Assembly (NCBI RefSeq): GCF_002083135.2
Contig: NZ_NBTM02000001.1
Location: forward strand, 620,001 to 684,000
From: Aerococcus viridans
Lineage (GTDB): Bacteria > Bacillota > Bacilli > Lactobacillales > Aerococcaceae
Reading direction: 5' to 3'
Length of the DNA: 64,000 nucleotides
The notes beneath the pieces are model-generated. The model did no database searches. It had not been told where the DNA came from and saw only the letters and a list, made by a program, of their open reading frames with translations. Positions 57,620-59,800 of the stretch are shown here, one piece after another (positions within the stretch are counted from its first letter, which is position 1; each line of letters opens with the position of its first letter). The translations under genes were made by a program, and so were the position numbers.

Positions 57620-57675
57620 TACATTATGATAAAAAGGCCGAGACTTAACCGTCTCGGCCTTTTTATCATAATGTA
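57620..57675. terminator. 25-bp perfect inverted repeat, shared terminator
   Basis: The arms 57620-57644 and 57651-57675 are perfect reverse complements, with core AAAAAGGCCGAGAC / GTCTCGGCCTTTTT around TTAACC. It serves the convergent bioY and rgg genes; the last three codons and the stop of rgg lie inside the right arm. Confidence 0.92.
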
Positions 57676-58571
57676 TGCGAACTTGAACTCTCACCATCTT
57701 TACCATCATTTGATACTGAAATAGTAAGGATAGTTTGATAGCAAGATAATTCATCTCGGTGCATTTTAGCAAATGGTGGGTCAAATAGTTCAAAAACTTG
57801 GATGGCTTTATGACACTTACTTAATCCTTCATCCGATTGTCCTTCAACAATTTTGATAATCCCATATAAAAATAAAAGTCGATTTTTGAAATAATAAGCA
57901 TTTGTGCTAAGTTCAGATTGGACTTCAGCTACGATATCTTTCACTTCTTCAGTCCGCCCTGACCGTAAACGGTCAAAGCATACATTGATTAGAATGCTGA
58001 ACAAGTGACTTTTGATAGCGTCTGTGTCTTGTAGAGTAGGCAGTTTTTTAACCATTTCATGGACTAATAAGTCTTGCAAAGGCATTGTTAATCCTCTAAG
58101 GGAATTCCCTAATAAAATCACTTCATAAGTTGTCCAGATTGAACAATTCAAAATGTAATCGCTAATGGCTACCTTATCTGCTTCAGCAATCTCAACCTCA
58201 GTTAAATCATTTAGTAACAGTTTCGTCATAATGGCATTGTATCTAAACAATACCTGGTTGGTTTCAAGGTACAATTTTTCATGGGTTTGTATAATCACTT
58301 TCAATGCAGCAATATCGCCTTGTTTATAAGCACTATCAATTTCTTCAATATATAATTTATATGGACTATCGAATTTCTCAATAGCAGCAATAAATTCTGA
58401 AAAGGATATACCTAGATTATGAACTAAGTTCACCAAATGATGAATTGTGATACTAGATTCACCACGTTCGAATTTTGAGAGTTGGGAATAAGAAATCTCC
58501 CCGGTGGTTGCATCCTTTAAGGTTAACCCTCGCTCCATTCTTAAATCTCTATATATTGTACCAATGTTCAC
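57666..58571 (-). CDS. Rgg/GadR/MutR family transcriptional regulator
   Basis: A 301-residue regulator with an N-terminal XRE helix-turn-helix (about 5-60: YRDLRMERGLTLKDATTGEI, then SQLSKFERGESSITI). The Rgg C-terminal TPR-like repeat domain (about 70-290) is all helical. The length, the L-S-K-F-E-R-G motif and the divergent hydrophobic peptide gene at 58654 match the peptide-sensing RRNPP members of streptococci. It is convergent with bioY and shares its terminator. The start lies after AAAGGAGCAACAGCGTG. No other regulator target is obvious in the neighbourhood. Confidence 0.85.
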   Translation of the reverse strand: MNIGTIYRDLRMERGLTLKDATTGEISYSQLSKFERGESSITIHHLVNLVHNLGISFSEFIAAIEKFDSPYKLYIEEIDSAYKQGDIAALKVIIQTHEKLYLETNQVLFRYNAIMTKLLLNDLTEVEIAEADKVAISDYILNCSIWTTYEVILLGNSLRGLTMPLQDLLVHEMVKKLPTLQDTDAIKSHLFSILINVCFDRLRSGRTEEVKDIVAEVQSELSTNAYYFKNRLLFLYGIIKIVEGQSDEGLSKCHKAIQVFELFDPPFAKMHRDELSCYQTILTISVSNDGKDGESSSSHTL

Positions 58572-58653
58572 GCTGTTGCTCCTTTGTAATATATGACAAT
58601 AAATAAAATTTTCCCATAACTCTGCTATATTCTAACAAAAAGGAGACGAAATC

Positions 58654-58719
58654 ATGAAACAAAAGTTCTTATCTTTACTAGCAGCTACCTCTATCTTTGG
58701 TACTATTGGTGTCTTATAA
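58654..58719 (+). CDS. candidate short hydrophobic signalling peptide, 21 aa
   Basis: ATG preceded by AAAAGGAGACGAAATC, an excellent ribosome binding site, followed by 20 further codons and TAA. The product MKQKFLSLLAATSIFGTIGV-L has a basic N-terminus and a hydrophobic remainder, the build of SHP pheromone precursors. It is divergent from the Rgg gene, 83 nt apart, the standard rgg/shp layout. The -10 TATATT (58626-58631) has no good -35, as expected for an Rgg-activated promoter. An alternative is a cut-off signal peptide of a lost secreted protein. Too short for automatic annotation. Confidence 0.6.
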   Translation: MKQKFLSLLAATSIFGTIGVL

Positions 58720-58729
58720 AGATTTAAGT

Positions 58730-59743
58730 CTATTTCTTCCAGTAGGCTAATACCATATATTCCATAGCGGACTGTACACTCACATTTGATTGAATCATCC
58801 GCTGTGCTTGCCCTACTAAATGTAGGGCTTTTGTTGCTTCTTCGACCGTAATCTTAGCCAGCATGCCTTGGTATTTACCAAAGTCATTAGGGAAGACCAA
58901 TTGTGCTTGATTGTCTTGTCCCTGATCTGCATGCAGGAGTAAATATAATAAATCATGGAAATGAAAGGCCACTAGATTTAGGGCCTGAATCATATCCGCC
59001 CTACCCTTAGGACCCTTCATCCAGTCTGACGCCACCATGGTTAGACCACGAGGGTCCTTTTTCACGATTAAATCCACCCACTGCAAGGACCAGTTGAGTC
59101 GTTGCTGGAAATCTTCATTCTCTGCCAACGCCGTCGCTTCACCCACATCATTTGTTAAAGCAGTCAGAGTCGCCGCCATACTTGGCTTAATCCCCGCTTC
59201 CTCAAATAGGACTTGTAAGTCCACCTTGTTTAATTGGGGGAAATGAATCATCTGGCAACGAGACACAATCGTGGACAGGATCGCGTCCCTATTATTGGTG
59301 AGGAGGAAAATATAGACATTTTCATGTGGTTCCTCGATAAACTTCAACAAAGAGTTGGCTGCATTGACAGTCATTTTCTCTGCTTCATGGATAATAAAAA
59401 TTTGGTTGTCTCCTTCAAGTGAGGACATGGACAACCGTTCTTTTAAATCTCTCGTCTGGTCAATTTTAATGGTATTCCCGTCCGGTTGAATATGAAAAAC
59501 ATCCGGATAGTCAGCGGACAATATCCGACGACAATGGTTACATGTCCCGCAAGGTATCCCCTTGTCAGCTGGATTGAGGCAATTCAAATAGGCCGCTAAA
59601 TATAGGGCCATATCTTCTTGACCAGAACCTACCATGCCTTCAAAAATATAGGCGTGGCCAAGGCGGTTATTGACGAGGACCCGGTCCATCATAGCGGTTA
59701 AATCCGCTTGCTTCTTGGCGATATCAAAATGTTCGTGTGCCAT
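58730..59743 (-). CDS. holB: DNA polymerase III subunit delta' (HolB)
   Basis: Clamp-loader subunit of the replicative polymerase. The 337-residue protein has a degenerate P-loop region (GMVGSGQEDMALYLA, about 34-48; delta' does not hydrolyse ATP), a zinc module CGTCNHC (about 61-67), HEAEKMTVNAANSLLKFIEE and the SRC motif in TIVSRCQMI. The start at 59743 follows GGAAAGGAG; a start six codons upstream is less likely. It is 57 nt downstream of tmk on the same strand. In most Firmicutes yaaT and yabA follow; here the peptide and Rgg genes follow instead. Confidence 0.93.
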   Translation of the reverse strand: MAHEHFDIAKKQADLTAMMDRVLVNNRLGHAYIFEGMVGSGQEDMALYLAAYLNCLNPADKGIPCGTCNHCRRILSADYPDVFHIQPDGNTIKIDQTRDLKERLSMSSLEGDNQIFIIHEAEKMTVNAANSLLKFIEEPHENVYIFLLTNNRDAILSTIVSRCQMIHFPQLNKVDLQVLFEEAGIKPSMAATLTALTNDVGEATALAENEDFQQRLNWSLQWVDLIVKKDPRGLTMVASDWMKGPKGRADMIQALNLVAFHFHDLLYLLLHADQGQDNQAQLVFPNDFGKYQGMLAKITVEEATKALHLVGQAQRMIQSNVSVQSAMEYMVLAYWKK

Positions 59744-59800
59744 TGATGGACTCCTTTCCATTGCTTTAAGGCGCTTTAAAGATTTGAATGTTTAGCTGAA

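Follow-up and report, generated by a model that had tools for sequence, protein, structure and literature searches.

Rgg/SHP systems and the Aerococcus locus

Rgg/SHP signalling has been described as concentrated in streptococci. In its groups I and II the peptide gene is divergent, and the mature peptide carries a conserved acidic residue at its start, Asp in group I and Glu in group II (PMC13361665). The leaderless peptides (LCPs) of systems such as RopB-LCP (SIP) are 8–10 residues long, and these systems are spread across Lactobacillales (PMC10518010). Export by PptAB is common to the enterococcal pheromone and SHPs (PMC10075063). In the literature that we searched, there was no paper on Rgg, SHP and Aerococcus, in agreement with a preliminary description of the present locus that considered such a pair undescribed for this genus; subscription papers lay outside the search, and the absence is therefore not proof.

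The locus lies in a window of 64,000 nucleotides (the whole stretch of DNA that was analysed) from Aerococcus viridans, whose genome is a single contig of 2.0 Mb. The relevant features, numbered from the first base of the window, are as follows.

57620–57675, both strands: two-way terminator of bioY and rgg, a 25-bp perfect inverted repeat with A/T flanks
57666–58571, minus strand: rgg, GTG start, 301 residues, N-terminal HTH and Rgg_C repeat domain
58584–58599, no strand: proposed Rgg operator, palindrome TTGTAATATATGACAA, sharing 2 bases with the rgg ribosome binding site
58593–58620, plus strand: overlapping weak promoter, ATGACA (58593–58598), 16 bp, CATAAC (58615–58620)
58623–58631, plus strand: extended -10 element TGCTATATT of the shp-like gene, TATATT 26 bp past the operator, no -35
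58640–58645, plus strand: ribosome binding site AAGGAG of the shp-like gene, the same in all four carriers
58654–58719, plus strand: shp-like gene, 21 codons, ATG start, precursor MKQKFLSLLAATSIFGTIGVL
58810–58832, plus strand: predicted intrinsic terminator for shp transcription, within the 3′ portion of holB and on the opposite strand

The preliminary description had likened this arrangement to streptococcal rgg/shp pairs. The likeness to Rgg2/Rgg3–SHP holds for the divergent layout, for the short hydrophobic precursor with a basic start and a strong ribosome binding site, for the full-length Rgg receptor of related sequence and fold, and for the activator-type promoter without a -35 element. 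It does not extend to the conserved Asp/Glu, which the Aerococcus peptide lacks, or to the receptor, which falls in a separate clade (~24% identity); the genus is different, and the Aerococcus shp transcript is predicted to be monocistronic and convergent with holB. Because the acidic residue is absent in three of the four species and the receptor lies outside the Rgg2/Rgg3 clade, two marks of the streptococcal groups are missing, and the sequence comparison makes a good case for a variant that would nevertheless function like Rgg/SHP.

Other described systems are more distant in layout. RopB–LCP likewise combines an Rgg-type receptor with a divergent peptide gene, but the Aerococcus peptide has 21 residues and a charged KQK leader instead of being leaderless. 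MutRS and group III Rgg–SHP systems also pair an Rgg/MutR regulator with a hydrophobic peptide, but their peptide genes are convergent and overlap the end of rgg, whereas the Aerococcus gene is divergent. The receptor fold of enterococcal PrgX–cCF10 belongs to the same RRNPP group. PrgX senses conjugation pheromones and cCF10 comes from a lipoprotein signal peptide, whereas the Aerococcus receptor faces a stand-alone 21-residue gene.

The regulator and the divergent small gene

Profile searches with the product of 57666–58571 detected the Rgg_C domain (Pfam, E 7e-26) and TIGR01716 (E 8.5e-29), confirming the Rgg-family regulator that the preliminary description had placed on the minus strand with its start at 58571. 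The HTH and the Rgg C-terminal domain span the full-length protein, as in Rgg members of the RRNPP group. Among solved structures, those of the SHP receptors Rgg2 and Rgg3 are the nearest (E 1e-18 to 1e-20), and Rgg2 also ranked first in a fold search that used a predicted model with a modest pLDDT of 66. In A. viridans, the final ~20 residues are species-specific and extend into the bioY terminator, and codons 206–279 are likewise more divergent. The inverted repeat at 57620–57675 has a predicted fold of about -40 kcal/mol on each strand.

The divergent 21-codon ORF was also found where it had first been reported, starting at 58654 and preceded by a good ribosome binding site. Its precursor has a basic N-terminus (the KQK leader) and a hydrophobic C-terminus, as is typical of SHPs. 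The signal itself is likely to correspond to the C-terminal ~8 residues, IFGTIGVL in A. viridans and IFGIIGVL or IFDIIGVL in relatives. Asp is thus present in the peptide of one carrier only (G011), the other three having Gly. Taken together, the sequence features indicate that this small gene beside rgg very probably encodes a hydrophobic signalling peptide. Searches of the A. viridans genome also identified a member of the EcsB family (E 5e-78) and a protease of the Eep/RseP family (E 2e-81), which we take to represent the families of the streptococcal exporter subunit PptB and of Eep, respectively; as general genes, both are weak evidence for signalling.

Distribution of the pair and selection on the ORF

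We surveyed 16 Aerococcus genomes, one per species. Orthologous rgg occurs in four of them, namely A. viridans, G014 (89%), G007 (75%; the same genome as record L002, Aerococcus sp. UBA6277) and G011 (75%). All four have the ORF in the same place, 82–84 bases from the rgg start and always 21 codons long, although the carriers are close relatives and effectively two lineages, so that the conservation amounts to about two independent comparisons. The precursors (MKQKFLSLLAATSIFGTIGVL, MKRKILSLLTNISIFGIIGVL, MKQKILSLLTTIAIFGIIGVL and MKQKILSLLTTIAIFDIIGVL) all end in IFGIIGVL or a near variant. As in SHP systems, the adjacent divergent ORF and its ribosome binding site are kept together with the receptor, and neither rgg nor the ORF was found elsewhere in the genus. 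The prediction that related genomes with rgg would always have a divergent short ORF with conserved C-terminal residues is therefore borne out in every carrier. Two observations named beforehand as arguing against a peptide gene did not materialize: no carrier has lost the ORF or its frame, and a peptide search of the 16 genomes returned the four carrier ORFs alone, with no homologue extending into a longer secreted protein.

G003 and G009, the closest non-carriers, have bioY directly next to holB, so the rgg–shp pair represents an insertion between the two genes, as originally proposed. The holB gene of A. viridans (58730–59761) is nearly identical to that of G011 and G007, whereas rgg and shp are nearer to those of G014; from these differing affinities we infer that the locus has probably been shuffled by recombination. 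An Rfam scan of 55.7–60.0 kb gave no match, and a plasmid search returned distant Rgg homologues only.

Between G014 and G007, the shp ORF shows 17 base differences and only 3 residue changes, and none of 20,000 simulations with randomly placed changes was as conservative. Within the last eight codons every difference is synonymous, and peptide conservation is strongest over the C-terminal 8 residues. Judged from its codons, the ORF is selected as a protein, with purifying selection acting across the deeper split. This, together with its retention in four carrier species, argues that the ORF is more than a chance occurrence. The comparison of A. viridans with G014 gives 6 non-synonymous codons and 1 synonymous codon. 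An outgroup comparison assigns ~5 non-synonymous and 0 synonymous changes to the A. viridans branch, numbers too small to separate relaxed from diversifying selection.

Proposed operator and promoter architecture

A 16-bp palindrome, TTGTNATATATNACAA, was found by comparing the rgg/shp intergenic region with the region just 3′ of rgg in relatives. A genus-wide scan detected one exact copy in A. viridans, two in G014, three each in G007 and G011, and none in the 12 non-carrier Aerococcus genomes. The palindrome occurs at three loci: between rgg and shp, before a lipoprotein gene 3′ of rgg, and before nox. Since the pattern was defined from two of these, the nox locus is independent of the definition. 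The spacing from the box to the -10 element is 26 bp, or 27 bp for shp in G014, G007 and G011. At the shp, lipoprotein and nox promoters the -10 matches 5 or 6 of 6 positions, and there is no good -35. With a transcription start ~7 bases past the -10, the centre of the box would lie near -46, a usual position for an activator. Both the operator and the architecture, which is as expected of an Rgg-activated promoter, are predictions. The fair -10 without a -35 noted initially at shp corresponds to the extended element at 58623–58631, and the accompanying idea of an activator-dependent promoter gains strength from the recurrence of the palindrome at a fixed distance from a -35-less -10 at three loci.

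The second hexamer pair, which overlaps the box, reads ATGACA-17-TATAAT in G014, G007 and G011 and is poor in A. viridans; it could possibly provide basal transcription in the three relatives. That the palindrome is instead the -10 element of rgg is less likely, because it also precedes the lipoprotein and nox genes; such a role possibly explains some of the conservation seen at rgg. Most matches with one mismatch (for example at genes for RidA-like, DhaM-like and GNAT-like proteins, named by inspection only) lie within coding regions or coincide with the start codons of conserved genes, where they are shared by descent, and they were therefore not counted as part of the regulon. The literature searched held no published Rgg operator sequence for comparison.

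Predicted targets and the proposed circuit

In G014 and G011, a gene for a thioredoxin-like lipoprotein adjoins the 3′ end of rgg, with a promoter of the box-26-(-10) type in between. The similarity of the lipoprotein to PedC/BrcD is weak and below the family cut-off. The G007 contig stops 3′ of rgg, and the box is present there. In G014, G011 and G007 another box stands 74 bp 5′ of the start of nox, which belongs to the H2O-forming NADH oxidase family (NF046103, E 7e-109); its flanks have diverged among the three, while the 16 bases of the box differ at no more than one symmetric position class. As the same promoter type stands before both genes, Rgg should also control the lipoprotein and nox genes in the related species.

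In G014, an AgrA-like LytTR regulator and then a circular-bacteriocin cluster follow 3′ of the lipoprotein gene. This set of genes (L050:6109-9266) lies between rgg and bioY, and the cluster comprises the circular bacteriocin gene (TIGR03651, E 4e-21) together with genes for a SpoIIM-like protein, an ABC transporter and a large membrane protein.

The sequence evidence consists of the genes themselves, their co-conservation, selection on the peptide and the repeated operator and promoter architecture; export, cleavage, import, peptide binding and activation we infer. We consider it probable that the locus is a peptide-signalling pair working like streptococcal Rgg/SHP, with Rgg activating the shp promoter. 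The 21-residue precursor would be made, cut and exported, and the mature hydrophobic C-terminal peptide would be taken back up and bind Rgg. Bound to the palindrome at 58584–58599, Rgg would activate the -35-less shp promoter, creating positive feedback, and rgg could regulate itself through this site, which reaches into the rgg ribosome binding site. In related species Rgg would additionally act on the lipoprotein and nox genes through their box-26-(-10) promoters. Counted against this model are the close relationship of the carriers, the lack of Asp/Glu, the clade of the receptor, a sister clade without a clear shp-like ORF, the non-synonymous shp changes on the A. viridans branch, the deletion of the lipoprotein gene and the degenerate nox box. 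Peptide control in Aerococcus becomes directly testable, since the precursor, a candidate for its mature form, the predicted operator and the target genes can all be named.

The last three points against the model concern A. viridans itself. Here all sequence between rgg and bioY, including the lipoprotein gene, is gone, and the 3′ end of rgg has been replaced and continues into other sequence. The nox box is degenerate, with a one-base deletion and substitutions; at this promoter (G000:C1 ~696500, L116) the box is lost and TATAAT is kept. NADH oxidase may thus be uncoupled from Rgg in this species, and with one target deleted and the other box degenerate, the circuit may be reduced to a self-inducing core with one clear site left. 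A broader reading, which we put forward tentatively as a possibility, is a separate, non-streptococcal Rgg–peptide lineage with its own operator TTGTNATATATNACAA, fixed box-26-(-10) promoters and a redox regulon of NADH oxidase and thioredoxin-like lipoprotein. It would neighbour a circular-bacteriocin cluster in one species, and A. viridans would retain the self-inducing core only. The pair also suggests how a peptide circuit can shed targets while its core persists.

The same losses, together with the fast non-synonymous change in shp, could also mean that the Rgg/peptide pair, genuine in the relatives, is being reduced or is decaying in A. viridans. This is compatible with the signalling model but somewhat unlikely in our view, as the rgg and shp frames, the ribosome binding sites and the operator are all intact in A. 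viridans, and its shp box is 26 bp from the -10, as at the lipoprotein and nox promoters.

Relationship to other Rgg proteins

A tree of 57 Rgg proteins placed the four Aerococcus sequences in one group (100/99) with L007, L135, L137 and L145, which are Rgg proteins from other families with 29–35% identity to them. The Aerococcus receptor lies outside the Rgg2/Rgg3 clade, away from 4yv6 and 10lg. Box-like sites occur 21–23 bp before the rgg starts of L007 (TTGTAGAATATGACAA), L137 (TTATCATCTATGACAA) and L135 (TTATATAATATGACAA), placed as predicted self-regulating operators should be. TATACT, TAATCT and GATACT, respectively, follow them at 26-bp spacing. As matches to the box, these sites are weaker. 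Across eight Rgg homologues with a box-like site this spacing was not enriched, being seen in the sister clade alone. Conserved lipoprotein targets in the sister clade were considered, and the claim was dropped since the proteins are not clearly alike.

No clear shp-like ORF accompanies the sister-clade rgg genes. The peptide gene may therefore be specific to Aerococcus; alternatively, the sister clade may have lost it, or its counterpart in that clade may have diverged beyond recognition. Retention of the box without such an ORF would also suit a product that acts on membranes as a small effector or toxin-like peptide and is controlled by Rgg without being its ligand, Rgg sensing something else; the product is indeed short, basic then hydrophobic, and has its own terminator. 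However, a divergent autoinduced peptide beside Rgg is the standard ligand layout (PMC13361665), and conservation, like that of pheromones, is highest over the last 8 residues. We therefore regard a membrane-acting product as improbable and favor a signalling peptide.

The predicted shp transcript

The predicted terminator forms the hairpin GCCCTAC-TAAAT-GTAGGGC followed by TTTTGTT. It is present in all four carriers, two with a G–T pair, and absent from the eight non-carriers compared. The predicted product is a monocistronic shp transcript of ~200 nt, convergent with holB and expected to run from about 58638 to about 58836. Such a transcript would enter holB by ~100 nt on the opposite strand and end at a hairpin found only in carriers, and might thus act mainly as an antisense RNA on the 3′ end of holB, the peptide being incidental. 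Codon-level selection within an ORF that lies entirely outside holB makes this very improbable. Least credible, and largely refuted, is the main alternative raised at the outset, that the sequence, which resembles the start of a signal peptide, is a cut-off remnant of a secreted protein, and with it the idea of a random ORF: length and stop are the same in four species, change is biased toward synonymous sites, and the 16 genomes hold no longer homologue.

Other Rgg loci

Several other Rgg genes came to light in the course of the analysis. In another genus of Aerococcaceae, L072 (G070 C20:92699-93523) encodes an Rgg with 75% identity to Streptococcus thermophilus Rgg3. Divergent from it is a group-I SHP gene of canonical type (MKKNLKFILMFLLVMDIIVIVGG) with an AAGGAG ribosome binding site, which makes this a streptococcal-type pair outside Streptococcus. 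The Rgg homologues L064, L066 and L068 (G093, G096 and G089), all from one genus, share a divergent ORF beginning MLESIGTLIWEVIG, with AGGAGG at ~+104, possibly representing another family of peptide ligands. Near the Rgg homologue L071 (G085) there is a divergent ten-residue ORF, MLVLLFLSSM, with AAGGAG and resembling a leaderless peptide. Within Aerococcus, a different Rgg gene (L054:4523-8541, G012) is divergent from genes encoding a transporter and a protein with a ThiF domain; the set may represent a modified-peptide cluster.
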